Shown here: in pieces, positions 1,832 through 10,136 of the stretch | How positions within the stretch are numbered: the first letter of the stretch is position 1 | Layout: each line of letters begins with the position of its first letter | Position numbers and translations under genes: made by a program | From: Deltaproteobacteria bacterium | GTDB lineage: Bacteria; Desulfobacterota; JADFXK01 | Direction of reading: 5' to 3' | DNA: 15,170 nucleotides | Assembly (NCBI GenBank): GCA_015233285.1 | Contig: JADFYA010000021.1 | Coordinates: forward strand, 3,707-18,876 | Notes under the pieces: model-generated | What the model was told of the DNA's origin: nothing | Databases searched by the model: none | Seen by the model: only the letters and a program-made list of their open reading frames with translations

Positions 1832-3235
1832 ATGGTTCTTATGGCGACAGAGCCCCAAAAGCACTACTTTCCGTTGCTCCTGTTGGCGCTGACCATCTGC
1901 CTTTTTCCTATCCCAAAGTTGATCCCTTTACCCCTGGTGGCCAACGGCAATTTGATGGTCGCCGTAACCGGTTTGGGGATAGTTCTCCACTCCTGGTTGG
2001 TGGTCGGCCGGAACAACGCGGGGGACGGCTGGTTGGCAGTTCTGGTTAAGCCGGTCCTGACCCCGGTTGGTTGGTGCGTTTCGATTTTTGTGTTGCTGAC
2101 CTGTGGTTATCTTATCTACTCGGTTCATCATCTCTGGTCAACGACGAAAGACCCCGGCCTGGTGGCCATGATCATCAAACTCTGGTTAGTCTTCCTGACC
2201 GGGGCGGCTCTGTACTACCTGCCGGTATTGATCATCCGGTCTGTGGTCGATCTGCGCTGGGTGGTGGCAGCCATGGCGTCTGCGCTGGTCTTTTATCTTG
2301 TGTATATCCCTTCGGTCATCTATTCCGGGTGGACAGCGGGGACGGTCAAAAGCCTGGCGGATGTTTATCAGGTCATCGGCATCCCGGATACATTGTTCAA
2401 GCGGATTCTCCTGGAGTCGGTCGGGAACGTAAACACCATCGCGGCCATCGCTGCTCTGATCACCTCATTCGGCCTGGGCTTTGTTGCATACAACGGACTT
2501 AGGCCGCGGTGTCTGATGCCTCTGATCACCTTTGGGTTGTTCATCTGTGTGGTCATGAGCGCCCGGGCGGCCGTCCTGTCCATCCTGGCCGCCATCCTGA
2601 CTTTGGGCTGGTTACGGCTGTCCACTTCACAGAAGGGTTTGAGGAAAAAACACCTCTGGCTGATCTTGATACTCTTGATAGCCGGCGGCGGTTATTTGCT
2701 TCCCTCCGGGCTAAACTTGTTTCAGGCCAAACCAAACCTGGAATTTCAAGGCGGGGGACGGCTCATCGTCTGGAAACCCTACTTAAAACAATGTCTCCAC
2801 CGTCCCTGGGGCCACGGTTTTGGGGCGGATCAATACAAGTCCTTGCTGCTGGGCGAAGACCGGATCCCGGAGATGAATACTCCGCTGGTGCTCAAACACA
2901 CCTCGCATAATACCTACCTCAGTCTGTTTTTTGAAGGCGGCGTTTTACTTCCGGCCCTCTACCTGGCAGTGATGGGGCTGACTCTGCACAACGCTTACCG
3001 GATATTTAAGAACACCGACTCAGTCCCGGCCAGGTCCCTGGCCGCGGCCACGATGCTGGGCCTGGTCTCAGGCCTGGTCACCTCATTTTTCGGTACCCAT
3101 TATACCTTTCCCAGTTTTATGGGTTATATGTGGCTGCTTGTGGCGCTCGGCGATATCCTGGCCAATCTCGCCGGTCCGAGAAGTTCAATGCCGCGTCATA
3201 CTGAGGCAAGCCCCCCGATATGCTCAGTCGCCTAA
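1832..3235 (+). CDS. O-antigen ligase/polymerase family membrane protein (Wzy/WaaL-like)
   Basis: A 467-residue inner-membrane protein with about ten to twelve hydrophobic segments, the first at residues 13-33. It has the Wzy_C/O-antigen ligase pattern: VVMSARAAVLS (about 240-250), then a large loop starting GGGRLIVWKPYLKQC (about 307-321, with R310) and GHGFGADQY, then KHTSHNTYLSLFFEGG (about 355-370), whose His residues correspond to the conserved catalytic-loop His of WaaL-type proteins. Such proteins polymerise polysaccharide repeat units or transfer them to lipid A-core or protein; the sequence does not tell which. ATGs at 1832 and 1841 are both possible, and neither has a strong Shine-Dalgarno. 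There are no other glycan genes nearby in the window, so it is an isolated ligase, but it lies within 7 kb of an exosortase, and exosortase loci often adjoin exopolysaccharide genes. Confidence 0.85.
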   Translation: MVLMATEPQKHYFPLLLLALTICLFPIPKLIPLPLVANGNLMVAVTGLGIVLHSWLVVGRNNAGDGWLAVLVKPVLTPVGWCVSIFVLLTCGYLIYSVHHLWSTTKDPGLVAMIIKLWLVFLTGAALYYLPVLIIRSVVDLRWVVAAMASALVFYLVYIPSVIYSGWTAGTVKSLADVYQVIGIPDTLFKRILLESVGNVNTIAAIAALITSFGLGFVAYNGLRPRCLMPLITFGLFICVVMSARAAVLSILAAILTLGWLRLSTSQKGLRKKHLWLILILLIAGGGYLLPSGLNLFQAKPNLEFQGGGRLIVWKPYLKQCLHRPWGHGFGADQYKSLLLGEDRIPEMNTPLVLKHTSHNTYLSLFFEGGVLLPALYLAVMGLTLHNAYRIFKNTDSVPARSLAAATMLGLVSGLVTSFFGTHYTFPSFMGYMWLLVALGDILANLAGPRSSMPRHTEASPPICSVA

Positions 3236-4199: not shown

Positions 4200-4316
4200 T
4201 GATTTTTCCTGGGATAATATTTTATTGGTAGTATGCCGTTCCTGCTTCCCAAGTCAAGATGACCTGCCGACCAACAATGAAAATACCCGCGGCCTCCCCC
4301 TTTCTCCGTCTCAGCC

Positions 4317-4354
4317 AAATAAAAGGCCCCATGGTTTCAGTGTACCATAGGGCC
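4317..4354 (-). terminator. Rho-independent terminator after the ice-binding-like IPTL-CTERM gene
   Basis: On the minus strand an 11-bp stem with one mismatch (GGCCC-t-ATGGT pairing with ACCAT-g-GGGCC) and a short loop is followed by TTTTATTT. It begins about 43 bases after the stop codon. The stem is homologous to the one at 6424-6456, but the ATGGT/ACCAT arm there is GTGGT/ACCAC, a paired change that keeps the stem, which supports selection on the hairpin. Confidence 0.8.
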
Positions 4355-4396
4355 GGGTGATTCTGCAATCGTTAATCAGCCTTCATATTCGAGCCG

Positions 4397-5695
4397 TTAT
4401 GCTTCCCCTCGTTGGCGGCGGCGGAGATAATAGCCCGCAGTGACGGCCAATAAGACGAAGATGATCATGCCCCACTCGTTTAAGGTGGGAATAGACGGAT
4501 TGAGAATGAACACAGCAGTTACGGTTTGATTAGAGTTGACTGTCAGGACCAGGGGGTTGGCCGTAGAGGTTCCTGTCGGCAACGTCCAGGATTTGAAGAC
4601 ATATCCGGCCGCTCCGGTTGCAGATAACCATACTCGTGTACCTGCCGTATATTGTTTGGAACATGTGCCGGGGCAGCTAATACCGCTTCCGTATACGGTT
4701 CCGGCATTGGTGGGAGAATTAACCACCGTCAAAGTATAATTAACCGGCGTCGGAGTCGGCGTCGGAGTCGGAGGCACTGGAGTCGCCGTTGGAGTTCCAG
4801 GACCCGGCGTCGGAGTGGGAGTCGGTGTCGGAGTGGGCGTCGGTGTTGGAGTCCCAGGACCCGGAGTCGGTGTTGGAGTGGGCGTCGGAGTGGGCGTCGG
4901 CGTTGGTGTCACGGGAGGGTTAATTGAATTGGCAATCAATGTTACCGCTTTCTGTGATAACGCTCTACCATTCAATGATGCACCGGTATTCATAGTTATC
5001 GCATTTTTAGCAAGTATAATTCCTTCCACATGTGCGGTCGCTTGGATTGCTACACCAACACCTCCGGCAACCTGCCAGATAATATTTTTGGCCTGTGCGC
5101 CACCAGTTAAGATGACGTTCTTGGCGGTGGCCACGATGAGATTTCCAGCTATCTGAAAAATCCAGACACTATTAGGACCACCATTTAGAGTAACATCCGA
5201 CGATATCAAAACGTTAGAACTCCATTTATAGAGGCCGGGAGCAATAGTCATTCCTCCTATTTGTCCAGCGCCCAACTCGGTAGCATCCGGCAATGTTCGT
5301 CCCGCAGCGTCAGTGTATGCAGTTTCCATGTCGCTAACTGCCGTAGTTAGGTTAGCAGGAGTTGGAGGCGCATAGTCGGCTGCGTATACCTTGCCAACCA
5401 CCTGTGGTGATGTCGCAAATTGATTCGAAGCATCAAGTGTTAATCCAAATCCGGTTATGGCTGTCCCGGTAATTGGGCTAACTCCAATATCTCCCGTAAT
5501 CAGAGTGGCTCCCGTGGTTGAGATTCCTGATTCAGCTAGAATCGCATAACTGCCAGCCGAACCAAGGTTTACCGGCAATTGAGCTGCTGTCTTACTGGTA
5601 AGCATCTTTTCGCTGTCGGCATTTGCCGTACTAACCTGAACCGCGGCAAAGACACAAACCCAGGCCAGGATCAGGAACAACCTTCTCATTTTCAT
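4397..5695 (-). CDS. Secreted DUF3494 ice-binding-like protein with IPTL-CTERM sorting tail
   Basis: A 432-residue surface or exported protein. Residues 1-27 are a Sec signal peptide (MKMRR, hydrophobic core, cleavage near ANADS). Residues about 43-260 are a DUF3494 ice-binding-like beta-solenoid (LGSAGSYAILAESGIS, TGDIGVSPITG, GLYKWSSNVLIS). Then come a Thr-Pro linker (about 265-318, with two GPG breaks), a bacterial repeat/InlB_B-like domain (YTLTVVNSPTNAGTVYGSG, paired cysteines in CPGTCSK), and residues 402-432: IPTLNEWG, one membrane span and RRRQRGEA. That last part is the IPTL-CTERM signal recognised by exosortase H. AGGAGG lies five to six bases before the first ATG. DUF3494 proteins bind ice in some species but many act as adhesins, and the role here is open. 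The last 110 residues nearly match those of the gene at 6499-7815. Confidence 0.88.
   Translation of the reverse strand: MKMRRLFLILAWVCVFAAVQVSTANADSEKMLTSKTAAQLPVNLGSAGSYAILAESGISTTGATLITGDIGVSPITGTAITGFGLTLDASNQFATSPQVVGKVYAADYAPPTPANLTTAVSDMETAYTDAAGRTLPDATELGAGQIGGMTIAPGLYKWSSNVLISSDVTLNGGPNSVWIFQIAGNLIVATAKNVILTGGAQAKNIIWQVAGGVGVAIQATAHVEGIILAKNAITMNTGASLNGRALSQKAVTLIANSINPPVTPTPTPTPTPTPTPTPGPGTPTPTPTPTPTPTPTPGPGTPTATPVPPTPTPTPTPVNYTLTVVNSPTNAGTVYGSGISCPGTCSKQYTAGTRVWLSATGAAGYVFKSWTLPTGTSTANPLVLTVNSNQTVTAVFILNPSIPTLNEWGMIIFVLLAVTAGYYLRRRQRGEA
4746..4910 (-). repeat. Thr-Pro (TP) codon repeat tract of the ice-binding-like protein
   Basis: Short tandem repeat of six-base units (ACTCCG/ACGCCG types on the minus strand) coding alternating Thr and Pro, interrupted by two Gly-Pro-Gly stretches. 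It forms a stiff linker between the solenoid and the repeat domain. Unit number could vary by slippage or unequal recombination with the similar tracts at 6846-7030 and 8570-8673. Confidence 0.85.
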
Positions 5696-5700
5696 TGGAT

Positions 5701-5880
5701 CCTCCTTGTAATTATCTGTCCATCATAAAGAATTAGCTCAAGACCCTTTCGCTCTACCTGAGAGGAGGCGAAAACGTCTGCGTTTTTCAGACCCCAAAAC
5801 GGCCAAAGCCGTGTACATGAGCGTCGTTCTAACTTTTCATTAACCCCGGACTAAAGCCGACCTAACCTCTGCTTACCGGA
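5701..5880 (-). promoter_or_regulatory. Possibly structured 5' leader of the ice-binding-like gene
   Basis: On the minus strand, read towards the start codon, there are three short perfect inverted repeats in succession: ACGGC/GCCGT (5799-5812, followed by TTTT), AAAACG/CGTTTT (5771-5786), and TTTCGC/GCGAAA (5747-5773), then AGGAGG before the ATG. Arms of the last two overlap, so they could be mutually exclusive. I compared it by eye with the c-di-GMP riboswitch pattern and found no match. Structure is seen; function is a guess. Confidence 0.25.
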
Positions 5881-6013
5881 AAAAAAGTTTCCCACTCAAC
5901 CAGTCCTCCATTAATTTCCATCATAAAAGCTGTATCTAAAAAATCAAGCACAGGGTATCAATTTCAGCAATCGTAATTTTGATTTGGATGTGTTATGTGC
6001 GTGGTGCCCAATA
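5881..6013. other. AT-rich intergenic stretch, nothing recognised
   Basis: The part of the 5696-6214 gap between the structured leader and the inverted-repeat element. I see no ORF with a ribosome binding site, no tRNA and no clear sigma-54 or sigma-70 promoter pair that could be called with confidence. A promoter for the minus-strand gene must lie here or in the leader. Confidence 0.3.
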
Positions 6014-6090
6014 TGTATCATCCTGTATTTTAATGATTTTTTATTAAATACAAGACGGCCCCATTTTTTTTGAAAAAATAGGATGATGCA
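6014..6090. repeat. 77-bp AT-rich element with 11-bp terminal inverted repeats
   Basis: Ends are TGTATCATCCT and AGGATGATGCA, which pair at 10 of 11 positions. Inside the left part is a second inverted repeat, TGTATTTTAAT/ATTAAATACA (6024-6052), with one bulge. The whole could fold into a branched hairpin. It could be a MITE-like or IS-end remnant, or a transcript-end structure. It carries no coding sequence. Confidence 0.4.
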
Positions 6091-6214
6091 ATGTAATTAA
6101 CTTGTTTCCGAGGAGAAAAAGATGGATGAACTTAGAATAGATTCAAAGATGTCCTGAGATGTATTGGTCAACCTCTCTTTGATGTCTAGTTCGACGGCGC
6201 GGGGGTAGCTGTGG

Positions 6215-6410
6215 CGCCTGGTTCGGCCTATCTCCGGCCTATTCTTCCAGTTTTCCATTCCATCAAGACCAGGGCCGAGAAGGGCAGGGCGACCATGGGG
6301 AATTTTAACAGCCATATGGGGGGGTCAGACGAAATATCTCGATCAGGGTAATTAAGGCAATAAAATGGGCGAAGATGAGGAACATCCCGATCAGGCCGCC
6401 CCTCGTCTCC
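6215..6410 (-). pseudogene. Frameshifted fragment copy of the exosortase 3' end
   Basis: The minus strand matches the end of the exosortase gene (about 8712-8890). Translated, it reads GGLIGMFLIFAHFIALITLIEIFRLTPP, then needs a one-base shift at a run of seven C (plus-strand G at 6318-6324) to continue as IWLLKFPMVALPFSALVLMEWKTGRIGRR and a TAG stop. The stretch around VALPFSALVLMEW is identical at DNA level over about 40 bases. There is no start codon and no 5' part, so it is not functional. It lies directly downstream of the terminator of the gene at 6499-7815, and the TAG may preserve the original C-terminus of the exosortase. Confidence 0.8.
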
Positions 6411-6423
6411 ATCTCAGCCAAAT

Positions 6424-6456
6424 AAAAGGCCCCGTGGTTTTGGTTACCACAGGGCC
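6424..6456 (-). terminator. Rho-independent terminator after the second IPTL-CTERM gene
   Basis: On the minus strand the stem GGCCC-t-GTGGT pairs with ACCAC-g-GGGCC (one mismatch) and is followed by TTTTATTT, about 43 bases after the stop codon. It is homologous in sequence and position to the terminator at 4317-4354, with a compensatory base-pair change. Confidence 0.8.
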
Positions 6457-6498
6457 GGGTGATTCTGCAATTGTTAATCAGCCTTCATATTTGAGCTG

Positions 6499-7815
6499 TT
6501 ATGCTTCTCCGCGTTGGCGGCGGCGGAGATAATACCCTGCAGTGACAGCTAATAGGACAAAGATGATCATGCCCCACTCGTTTAAGGTGGGAATAGACGG
6601 GCTGGGAACGTAAACAGCGGTTACAGTTTGGTTAGAGTTGACTGTCAGGGTCAACGGGTTAGCAGTAGAGTTACCTGTGGGCAAAGTCCAGTTTTGGAAT
6701 ACATATCCGGATCCTCCGGCCGCGGTTAACGTTACTGAAGTACCTGCCGCATATGTTTTGGAGCATGTGCTGGGGCAAGTGATGCCGTTCCCTGATACGG
6801 TTCCAGCATTAGCGGGAGAATTAACCACCGACAAGGTGTATATGACCGGCGTCGGAGTCGGAGTTGGTGTATTCGTCGGCGTCGGAGTCGGAGTCGGCGT
6901 ATTCGTCGGCGTCGGTGTGGGCGTCGGTGTGGGCGTCGGTGTGGGCGTCGGCGTATTCGTCGGTGTCGGTGTTGGAGTGGGCGTATTCGTCGGTGTCGGG
7001 GTGTTGGTCGGAGTAGGAGTCGGCGGAGTAGTGACGGTGACATTGACTGTCACGTCACCTGAATTTAAAGCGCTGTTTCCGTCAACATTGACGCCTACCG
7101 CCTGGTAAGTGAATGTGTCCGGGCCCACGTAACCAGTCGTGGGAGTGTATCTTAACGTATTGCCGCTGGTCGTCAAGGTGCCGTGAGAAGGAGCGACGGA
7201 ACCTCTGATAATTCCAGTTACGCAGCCATACACAGCGCCTGCTCTCGGACCCCTCCCAGCATTGTCACCGGTGGAACACCCAGTGATGCTGCCCGTCGGA
7301 ACAGTCACCAGGGTCGGGGTATTTCCCGTAGCTGTCATAGTCGTCGTGGCCGAAATCACGTTGAGCGAGACGATCAGGTCAGTCGGGCCGCCCGGTCTGG
7401 CTGTGCCACCAGCTGAACCAGCTCCGCCGGCCGAATTCCAACATGTCGTCACATGAATGGTGAATGCATCGGTGCCCGTAAAATTTGGCGTTGGGGGTGT
7501 GTAGACGTAATTGATACTTGACCCACTCACAGTGCCGGTTAAGGTTCCACCTTCCTGGGTGGGGATGTTCAAACTGGTATCGTTGGCAGGATTATTGTTG
7601 TAACAATCCGCGTCGGCCGTGAATACTCCGGCTCCCCCATTAACAATCAAAAAGCCTACCCCTTCTTGAGGCTGACAAAAAAGAGGGTCGCCTGGATTGC
7701 TCGTAACCCCACGGGGAGTGAGGCGGTTGTCCGCATCGGCATAAGATTCAATAAAGCCGGTCGTAACGATCAGAGCCAACATCGAGGCAAGAATCAATAA
7801 TCGTCTTCTTTTCAT
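6499..7815 (-). CDS. Secreted cadherin/Ig-like-domain protein with IPTL-CTERM sorting tail
   Basis: A 438-residue exported protein. Residues 1-27 are a signal peptide (MKRRRLL, hydrophobic core, cut near SYADA). Two cadherin/Big-like domains follow: about 35-150, with NIPTQEGGTLTGTVSGSSINYVYTPPTPNFTGTDAFTIHV in overlapping form, and about 155-258, with GTLTTSGNTLRYTPTTG and GPDTFTYQA. Then come a Thr-Pro-Asn linker (about 259-325), a bacterial repeat domain with CPSTCSK, and residues 408-438 as IPTLNEWG, membrane span, RRRQRGEA. GAGGGGAC lies just upstream of the ATG. The N-terminal half is unrelated to that of the gene at 4397, while the C-terminal 110 residues are almost the same: different heads on one sorting module. 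Likely role: surface adhesin or structural protein processed by the exosortase encoded upstream on the same strand. Six cysteines in the head could form disulphides. Confidence 0.87.
   Translation of the reverse strand: MKRRRLLILASMLALIVTTGFIESYADADNRLTPRGVTSNPGDPLFCQPQEGVGFLIVNGGAGVFTADADCYNNNPANDTSLNIPTQEGGTLTGTVSGSSINYVYTPPTPNFTGTDAFTIHVTTCWNSAGGAGSAGGTARPGGPTDLIVSLNVISATTTMTATGNTPTLVTVPTGSITGCSTGDNAGRGPRAGAVYGCVTGIIRGSVAPSHGTLTTSGNTLRYTPTTGYVGPDTFTYQAVGVNVDGNSALNSGDVTVNVTVTTPPTPTPTNTPTPTNTPTPTPTPTNTPTPTPTPTPTPTPTPTNTPTPTPTPTNTPTPTPTPVIYTLSVVNSPANAGTVSGNGITCPSTCSKTYAAGTSVTLTAAGGSGYVFQNWTLPTGNSTANPLTLTVNSNQTVTAVYVPSPSIPTLNEWGMIIFVLLAVTAGYYLRRRQRGEA
6846..7030 (-). repeat. Thr-Pro/Asn-Thr-Pro codon repeat tract
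   Basis: Tandem six-base units coding TPTP, with AATACG units giving NTP at intervals, on the minus strand. Same role and origin as the tract at 4746-4910, but punctuated by Asn rather than Gly-Pro-Gly. The plus strand of this tract gives a spurious Gly-Val open frame. Confidence 0.85.
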
Positions 7816-8358: not shown

Positions 8359-8574
8359 ATGAAAGAGATTAAGAGGTTAGAATCTACCTTTAAGGACTGC
8401 CTTGGTTGGCAAGCGCAAAGAATTAGCTTTTTGACGCAATTCCTCATCGCTGTGATTAAAGCCAGGACCGTTAATTTGGCCGAAATTTCCGACTGGACTT
8501 TGGACAAAATATCCATGGCATTCCTTCTTTTTATATCACGCAGATTAGTTTTGCAAGAAGCTCAAGGTGTATAG
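8359..8574 (+). pseudogene. Truncated IS4-type transposase, N-terminal fragment
   Basis: A 71-codon frame starting MKEIKRLESTFKDCLGW, then RISFLTQFLIAVIKARTVNLAEI. This is the characteristic N-terminus of IS4-family transposases (tryptophan, then a hydrophobic helix ending in KxRTVNLxE). AAGG precedes the ATG by about nine bases. The DDE catalytic core, normally some 300 further residues, is missing: the transposase similarity fades before 8555 and the DNA passes into the remnant of a Thr-Pro repeat gene at about 8561. The element is therefore a dead left-end fragment. It is the only plus-strand gene remnant in the sorting island and explains the AT-rich patch around it. Confidence 0.7.
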
Positions 8575-8673
8575 GGTTGGCGTCGGTGTCGGATAGGACG
8601 TATTCGTCGGCGTCGGATAGGCCGTCGAGGTGTTGATTGGTGTCTGAGTGGGCGTCGGTGTAGGAGTCGCAAC
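8545..8673 (-). pseudogene. Remnant of a third Thr-Pro linker/repeat-domain (IPTL-CTERM type) gene
   Basis: Minus-strand frame VATPTPTPTQTPINTSTAYP, then TPTNTSYPTPTPTLYTLS, after which the frame leaves the family and stops. It matches the linker plus the first residues (YTLSV) of the bacterial repeat domain in the two intact genes. The DNA CAAGGTGTATA at 8564-8574 is shared exactly with the equivalent point of the gene at 6499-7815. The break at about 8561 is where the IS fragment begins. The N-terminal head and the IPTL tail are both gone. The same bases are also read, in another frame, as the tail of the exosortase. Confidence 0.7.
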
Positions 8674-10136
8674 GTTCCGGTATGTTTTAGTCGAACCGAT
8701 GTCGGCTCGATCCGGCCCATTCTTCCGGCTGGCCATTCCATCAAGACCAGGGCCGAGAAGGGCAGGGCGACCATGAGGGATTTCAGTAGCCATACGGGGG
8801 GCGTCAGGTGCCATATCTCGGTCAGGGCGATGAGGGCCGCGAAATGGGTGAAGATGAGGAACATCCCGATCAGGCTGCCCCATATCTTATCCCTCCAGGA
8901 GAACCGGGGTGAGGACCACCACAGGGTCAGCCAGAAAAAGGTGTGAAATTCGACCATCCGGGAGACGCAGGAATAGGGGTCATAGGTCAGGCTCGCGGTC
9001 CCGTTGATTCTCGACATCAGTAGCGGAATGACTGTGTGAAGGGTGACCCATCTGCTTAACCAGGCCACCCCGCAGGCAGCCACCCCGGCCAGGAGCAACC
9101 GCGGGATTTGCCTCCGGTAACTAGTGACACAACTTAGGGAACATCTTTTGTATGTAACTAGAGCCAGTAACCCGGCCATCAGGACGCAGGTCCCAAAGAA
9201 ATGGCGGAAGATGCCCTGGTCGGTGCCGGTGTGGTGAAAAGAGAGGGCAATGACAACTGTCCGACTCAGGAAATGAGCATAATACACCCCAAAAAAACCC
9301 ACTACCAGCCACACCCATTTGAACCGCCACCTGGCCGGCCAGGCAAAGATCGCGGCCATAACAATGATCACCACCGGACCCGACAGACACTTCTGATTCA
9401 ACTCGATGGACAGGGAGGCCACCCGCAGCGTCAAATCCTTCGCGGACGTCTCGGCCACAAAGGACAGCAGCCAGGCAGCATGGTTAACGATCACCTGATG
9501 AAACCAGGCGCCTAAGTCGCTCTCCCCGAATAATCTGTAGGCCAGGCTGCTCAAAATGAACCCGGCGCAGAACAGCACCAGAATCTCAATCAGACGCCGT
9601 CTCGGGGCCGCCATGGCCGGACCGGTCCCCCTCTTGCCCCACCCGGCCCAGTATAAAAACAACCCCAAGGCCCCGGTAATAATCAGGGCCTGACCGGCCA
9701 GCGTATGCCAGAACCACAGGCTGTCGGTAATCCGGGACGAGGCCAGGACAATCATGGAAGAGCGCAGGATGTTGAGGCAGAAGATTAGCCCGATGCCGGA
9801 GACCAGGCCATAGAGGCGGATGGTCCAGGCCGGTAAAAAAGCCAGGGCGGCTGCAGCATACAAGAAAATAACCATGGACCCGGCACAGGACCCAGCCACC
9901 TCGAAATAGGCCGTGGCCGTGGCGATGGTGCTGCCCGTCAAGACGGTCGGAACGCCCGCCAAAGACAGCAGAACGTGGGTGGCCCAGGCTGTCCCTTCGG
10001 CCAGATGACCCAGAACATGCCGGTCGAACCAGGCCGTCTGGTCAATAAAATAAAACCCGGCCGACATCAGACAAAACAAGATTGCTTGTTTGATGAATTC
10101 GGTATCAACAGGTCTGTTATTGGCTTGAGATGTCAT
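8562..10136 (-). CDS. xrtH: Multi-module exosortase (XrtH-like) with two complete Cys-Arg-His signatures
   Basis: A 524-residue polytopic inner-membrane protein. Exosortases are transpeptidase-like cysteine proteases that cut C-terminal sorting tails and pass the protein on to the surface. Module 1 has VAGSCAGS (C84), CLNILRSSMIVL (R125) and WFWHTLAG (H144), the classic triad. Module 2 has NQKCLSGP (C250), FLSRTVVIAL (R292) and FRHFFGTC (H312) with the same spacing: Cys-Arg 41 and 42, Arg-His 19 and 20. A third region (about 345-470) keeps DPYSCVSRM (C390), but His431 stands where Arg is expected and the His is absent. Residues 476-524 are an Arg/His/Pro tail read out of frame from a Thr-Pro repeat remnant, so the native end is near 475. 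Exosortase family is certain from motifs; class H is inferred from the two IPTL-CTERM genes beside it. The third region might correspond to the separate XrtH-associated membrane protein of other genomes. The start at 10136 has only a weak GGGG site. Confidence 0.85.
   Translation of the reverse strand: MTSQANNRPVDTEFIKQAILFCLMSAGFYFIDQTAWFDRHVLGHLAEGTAWATHVLLSLAGVPTVLTGSTIATATAYFEVAGSCAGSMVIFLYAAAALAFLPAWTIRLYGLVSGIGLIFCLNILRSSMIVLASSRITDSLWFWHTLAGQALIITGALGLFLYWAGWGKRGTGPAMAAPRRRLIEILVLFCAGFILSSLAYRLFGESDLGAWFHQVIVNHAAWLLSFVAETSAKDLTLRVASLSIELNQKCLSGPVVIIVMAAIFAWPARWRFKWVWLVVGFFGVYYAHFLSRTVVIALSFHHTGTDQGIFRHFFGTCVLMAGLLALVTYKRCSLSCVTSYRRQIPRLLLAGVAACGVAWLSRWVTLHTVIPLLMSRINGTASLTYDPYSCVSRMVEFHTFFWLTLWWSSPRFSWRDKIWGSLIGMFLIFTHFAALIALTEIWHLTPPVWLLKSLMVALPFSALVLMEWPAGRMGRIEPTSVRLKHTGTLRLLHRRPLRHQSTPRRPIRRRRIRPIRHRRQPYTP

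Follow-up and report, generated by a model that had tools for sequence, protein, structure and literature searches.

Does a single exosortase chain hold two catalytic sites at this locus? The original prediction, made on positions 8712..10136 of the window (the whole stretch of 15,170 nucleotides analysed here), described an exosortase with two complete Cys-Arg-His sets in tandem, followed by a third, degenerate module. We found C84, R125 and H144, as well as C250, R292 and H312, at the positions claimed, with spacings of 41+19 and 42+20 residues, respectively. The coordinates were also correct, with the amendment that the frame lies on the minus strand; the plus strand of 8712–10136 has many stops in frame. 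By ORF analysis, the gene is a single open frame of 524 amino acids, in which residues 1–475 constitute the part conserved among relatives. The tri-modular exosortase gene is real, and these 475 residues make it a member of a conserved family. The region of the remaining tail encodes ATPTPTPTQTP...YTLS in an alternative frame. The tail is present in locus L001 as well, where the match runs over residues 1–524; the end of the gene in locus L002 is different and shorter. The features are collected in Table 1.

Table 1. Positions of the exosortase gene, its parts and the associated features in the window
Feature	Coordinates	Strand	Basis
Tri-modular exosortase gene	8562..10136	-	524 codons plus stop; ORF calls, family alignments
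Module 1 (residues 1–172), predicted canonical exosortase	9621..10136	-	TIGR04178 and PF09721 scores; invariant triad
Module 1 triad codons	C84 9885-9887; R125 9762-9764; H144 9705-9707	-	
Module 2 (residues 173–338), predicted second exosortase module without conserved triad His	9123..9620	-	Models, profile comparison, alignment
Module 2 residue codons	H219 9480-9482; C250 9387-9389; R292 9261-9263; H312 9201-9203	-	
Module 3 (residues 339–475), four-helix domain that may be of the XrtH-partner (XrtH_assoc) type	8712..9122	-	Profile match, hydropathy layout
Non-homologous tail (residues 476–524 plus stop)	8562..8711	-	Proline/threonine-repeat DNA of substrate-gene type, read out of frame
Leftover duplicate of the exosortase gene 3' end	6233..6402	-	84% identical to 8711-8881 (171 bases); self-comparison and L002
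Probable substrate 1, surface protein with Pro/Thr linker, InlB-B repeat and IPTL-CTERM signal	6499..7815	-	TIGR04174 25.6 bits, cut-off 20.5
Probable substrate 2, ice-binding-like protein with IPTL-CTERM signal	4397..5695	-	TIGR04174 26.4 bits; PF11999 E 1e-74

We looked for relatives with the same architecture and observed them on many contigs, in several genera and in three families. Full-length three-part members are present in 15 genomes of one phylum. They were found in 9 of the 22 genomes in the order of G143 (any match, 13/22), in G001 and G005, and in 4 of the 46 genomes in the family of G287, where the gene also occurs in two pieces ∼1.8 kb apart (G434) and as a fragment at a contig end (G247). 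The class of G287 (85 genomes) yielded no additional full-length member. At E 1e-6, 40 of 395 genomes drawn from the phylum had a match, and for more than half of the 40 the protein hit was an XrtH-like one that stands alone or has a single module. A protein search with residues 200–474 of P0002 returned at least 23 clusters; among the matches listed, 22 are 450–494 amino acids long (P0019 is marked partial) and P0023 has 278. For two clusters, the name given at source is archaeosortase/exosortase family protein. When P0001 or a 4-row alignment served as the query, protein searches recovered only the query itself among the 7996 candidates sharing most words, and a 12-row profile gave no relative among solved structures at E up to 1.

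Residue conservation was scored on a 38-row alignment made up of 15 rows from the window and loci and 23 protein clusters; some of the proteins are identical, and 29 representatives remain below 90% identity. The ω values for five chosen pairs were 0.07–0.17 for module 1, 0.10–0.21 for module 2 and 0.20–0.25 for module 3, one value being not computable. All three modules are under purifying selection, and the constraint on module 2 is nearly equal to that on module 1. The recurrence of the architecture across contigs and families, together with this selection, bears out the proposal of a genuine multi-module exosortase.

Residues 1–170 scored above the curated cut-offs of both TIGR04178 (43.3 bits; cut-off 23) and PF09721 (45.7 bits; cut-off 25.7). 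In local-mode profile–profile comparisons, module 1 matched the standalone XrtH proteins with 99.7%; the sets used in these comparisons (15 standalone XrtH proteins; 8 type A partners, 5 type B partners and 4 or 2 fused ends) are a selection. C84, R125 and H144 are invariant in all the 37 rows having residues there, the remaining row being gapped, and the His is followed, four positions on, by the Gly of a GQ. By these comparisons, module 1 is an exosortase of the XrtH-like kind whose Cys-Arg-His triad is invariant, and the complete set claimed for it holds.

Module 2 gave weaker matches. Residues 171–338 alone matched XrtY (29.5 bits, E 6e-7) and XrtH (22.6 bits, E 9e-5), both below the cut-offs, and scored 15.1 bits against the superfamily model TIGR04178 (cut-off 23); module 2 alone had no PF09721 match. 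In local-mode profile comparisons, it matched the 15 standalone XrtH proteins with 96.9%, and this figure was 97.5% after the addition of the fused N-termini and 98.2% after the further addition of module 1; the comparison in global mode gave 98.9%. The probability for module 1 against module 2 was 96.1% (94.9% in the other local-mode run). Reversed-profile controls for the module 2 pairs gave 0.1–0.3%. By the profile comparisons and the below-cut-off model matches, module 2 is a true second exosortase module, homologous to exosortases, as had been anticipated for this stretch.

The second catalytic set, on the other hand, was only partly upheld. C250 and R292 are invariant (38/38 rows), but position 312 is Asn in 35 rows, His in 2 and Ser in 1, so that 36 of the 38 rows are without the second His. 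His312 is present only in the window and in its near relative L002, and two complete triads are ruled out as a feature of the family. The residue at 312 (His or Asn) is also placed three residues ahead of the following Gly, compared to four in module 1; cluster P0015 has, besides the Asn, a His four residues before the same Gly. The second complete triad is thus a local coincidence, confined to two sequences and out of register. Measured against the Cys-Arg-His signature (with Arg as third residue in ArtA), module 2 lacks a conserved His as its third residue. What the family shares is a Cys-Arg module that lacks the usual His but has another one, His219, which is invariant in 38/38 rows.

Module 3 had been described as a third, degenerate module marked by Cys390 and His431. 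Each of these residues occurs in 2 of the 38 rows; a conserved signature is ruled out, and they are no family feature. None of the exosortase models matched module 3, and its local-mode profile probabilities against exosortases or modules 1 and 2 were 0.1–2.8%. Residues 339–475 also gave no match to NF041730 (XrtH_assoc; cut-off 35 bits) at E up to 1. The best profile match of module 3 was to one set of XrtH partners, type B plus four fused C-termini, with 63%, against 11% when two fused ends were used; type B alone gave 8%, fused ends alone 6.5%, all partners 7% and type A alone 0.7%. As the match varies with the partner set, module 3 can be called partner-like only with reserve. Single module 3 sequences scored within the control range (best 15.6 bits versus 15.4 for the best among the controls not recognised as partners), a rough range only, since the 47 control proteins included family fragments, other exosortases or partners. 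Among other candidates for module 3, CidA/LrgA (15.5 bits; cut-off 112) and YniB (18.8 bits; cut-off 27) were rejected as sub-cut-off matches.

We compared the hydropathy of the modules as well. The main hydrophobic segments are centred at residues 22, 93, 124 and 152 in module 1, at 195, 259 and 318 in module 2 (the third of its four segments was not detected) and at 353, 399, 430 and 459 in module 3. This four-segment layout is alike in the modules, XrtH and the partners, with one segment of module 2, and one of some partner sets, being sub-threshold. It fits a common fold of the modules, XrtH and the partners, and is no proof of one.

We next consider the relation of the fusion to XrtH. The XrtH model TIGR04177 matched all the 15 family members scanned, with 45.1 bits in the window and 62, 66 and 71 bits in three other fusions. 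In the 21 fusion genomes none of the fusions exceeded the cut-off of 86 bits. The search picked up the fusion in 18 of these genomes and nothing in the fragment-only G247, G154 and G162; the one further match was G001:C421, with 18 bits. Thus, none of these fusion genomes is known to have a standalone XrtH. A separate XrtH_assoc gene (NF041730) was found in 0/21 fusion genomes and in 12 of 20 others, including all six standalone-XrtH genomes of the family f49. NF041730 missed partners adjoining XrtH in G108, G356 and G004, and absence by this model is no proof; the contrast is therefore strongest inside f49. From this distribution, the three-part fusion seems to take the place of two separate genes, XrtH and its partner. 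The XrtH_assoc match is on another contig than the standalone XrtH in G202, and about 0.75 Mb from it in G342; enzyme and partner can thus be encoded apart. In G414 (L075:114-1810), an exosortase, XrtH_assoc and a second exosortase are three consecutive genes, and the search of this genome for IPTL-CTERM at E 0.01 came up empty. At L014, L059, L116 and L117, an XrtH-like exosortase of one module is joined to a partner-like domain at its C-terminus, without module 2; the L116 protein has an additional C-terminal region, reaching 605 amino acids.

Both the IPTL-CTERM genes of the window are downstream of the exosortase gene on the same strand. Probable substrate 1 also matched PF18998 (E 1e-11), and the IPTL-CTERM model PF18203 just below its cut-off (19.8 versus 20.8). 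IPTL-CTERM proteins over the cut-off were present in 16 of the 21 fusion genomes. In f49, they were found in 5/6 fusion, 5/6 standalone-XrtH and 2/34 genomes with neither (fusion versus neither, Fisher p 0.0002, G247 being counted on a fragment); the exceptions were G415 (fusion) and G414 (standalone XrtH). In the order of G143, the difference was weak: 9/13 genomes with the fusion (fragments counted) versus 2/9 without it (Fisher p 0.08). Both p values overstate the association because the genomes are related. The counts were 3 in G001, 1 in G005 and 5 in G004, which has two standalone XrtH genes. G423 has 27 matches, 26 over the cut-off, and the fusion is its only XrtH-like match; this genome is suited to a study of substrates, with a listed contamination of 8%. 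The tails at selected loci of fusion genomes look canonical, for example IPTLNEWGMI ahead of a hydrophobic stretch and then basic residues. Proteins of this kind can be among the major ones at the surface: the S-layer protein identified in Methylomirabilis lanthanidiphila has a predicted IPTL-CTERM domain (PMC8671808).

The explanation that we favour, and consider reasonably probable, is that one chain replaces XrtH and its partner and adds a non-canonical exosortase unit, module 1 being catalytic, module 2 a pseudo-enzyme and module 3 the counterpart of the partner. The strict retention of Cys250 and Arg292 argues against it, as this exceeds the needs of a purely structural module. This retention, the equal invariance of His219 and the closeness of the ω values of modules 2 and 1 would rather favour a second working site in module 2, built from Cys250, Arg292 and His219 (or the Asn at 312), the two sites acting in series or on different substrates. 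The third residue does vary in the superfamily: a passage of a review calls Cys173, Arg214 and Arg253 of archaeosortase A critical, the third triad residue there being Arg (PMC9263693). We nevertheless consider such a rewired site, the main rival view of module 2, unlikely, as a His at 312 is missing in most rows, and His219 precedes the Cys by 31 residues, belongs to a different predicted segment and aligns with no His of the XrtH profile. A narrower version makes module 2 chemically distinct, with a Cys250/Arg292/His219 site in series with module 1 and with cleavage and re-attachment split between the sites, so that module 2 might accept the cut protein or hold the acceptor; this appears to us quite improbable.

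The internal triplication suggested originally, by which all three modules would descend from one exosortase and module 3 would be a copy without catalytic residues, draws on the similar layout of the main hydrophobic segments. It is also favoured by one partner set (type B plus fused ends), which matched exosortases with 74% when XrtH plus fused N-termini were used, and with 46%, 11% and 4% for other exosortase sets; the XrtH partner protein may be a very diverged exosortase-like protein. Against this stand the low direct profile matches of module 3 to exosortases and the lack of conservation of Cys390 and His431. In a 49-row tree, modules 1 and 2 were each set apart by a branch of their own (support 100/99 and 100/100, respectively), and module 1 grouped not with module 2 but with five XrtH-like proteins, four of which are exosortase–partner fusions (88/85), leaving module 2 outside on its own long branch; this tree was midpoint-rooted for drawing only, and the program warned of long branches. 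We regard the triplication as doubtful. One might suspect that separate genes were joined by an assembly error or a frameshift, since the assemblies of the relatives consist of several contigs and three have metagenome-assembled in the title, but the same junctions recur in many contigs that differ in source and family, the linkers are alignable and purifying selection acts throughout. The many independent assemblies rule it out, and we give an artefactual join practically no credence.

In the favoured explanation, one chain in place of XrtH and its partner, the substrates would be Sec-exported and held by their C-terminal helix. Cys84 of module 1, aided by Arg125 and His144, would then attack the IPTL-CTERM signal as a nucleophile and remove it, and the cut surface protein would be passed to an acceptor in the envelope. 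Module 2 is most likely non-cutting, a probable pseudo-enzyme that would pair with module 1 in the membrane, and it probably binds either the helix of the signal or the acceptor. Module 3 probably corresponds to the XrtH-associated membrane protein, here built into the chain, and may help to assemble the complex or keep it stable. To our knowledge, the hand-over of a cut substrate from an exosortase to its acceptor, as well as the role of the partner protein, is poorly known. A transpeptidase role of exosortases is still given as a suggestion in a 2025 paper (PMC11980579). In the natural fusion, three parts occur in a set stoichiometry: an active exosortase, a sister module whose site is conserved though altered, and what may be a partner domain. 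Their division of labour is testable by single changes in one polypeptide. For the genomes with a separate partner, the fusion suggests, as a guess, that exosortases act as hetero-complexes with related, non-catalytic units.

Exosortases, the XrtH/IPTL-CTERM pair and XrtH_assoc are already known; what appears new is the chain with two exosortase modules. The fusion resembles XrtH (TIGR04177, cognate of IPTL-CTERM) in the catalytic residues of module 1 and in the IPTL-CTERM genes of the same genome, which in the window are near the gene. It differs from XrtH in being one 475-residue chain with a predicted second exosortase module and a third domain, and in scoring below the XrtH cut-off. Module 3 is similar to XrtH_assoc in helix layout, in its position after an exosortase and by the weak profile link; unlike XrtH_assoc, it is fused, has a shorter stretch between the first two segments and has no NF041730 match. 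Of the NCBIfam models, XrtY (NF046083) scores highest on module 2 of the window taken by itself, yet module 2 is far under the cut-off of 160 bits, and XrtY is modelled as a single module of 168 positions. P0005 in L026, which we take to be an exosortase E fused to a CAAX-type protease, similarly has an extra domain on an exosortase, but the added domain would be a protease and not a second exosortase. None of the NCBIfam or Pfam models matched by the family describes a chain that has two exosortase modules, and among the matches listed from the open-access literature we found no paper describing a fused or double exosortase.

The neighbourhood also carries traces of local duplication. In L002, sequence matching window 5719–6402 comes directly after the exosortase gene. 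From this layout and the repeat of the 3' end (Table 1), the segment with probable substrate 1 seems to have arrived by local duplication. The two IPTL-CTERM genes are 79% identical in their 3' halves (window 4291–4903 versus 6394–7002), indicating a local substrate-gene duplication as well. L003:6007-6580 (G001:C177) holds a second, decayed copy of the exosortase gene, in which the parts matching window 9929–10121 and 8711–9088 adjoin, most of modules 1 and 2 being absent. Finally, an O-antigen ligase-like protein (Wzy_C) is encoded near the sorting genes, at window 1832–3235 on the plus strand.
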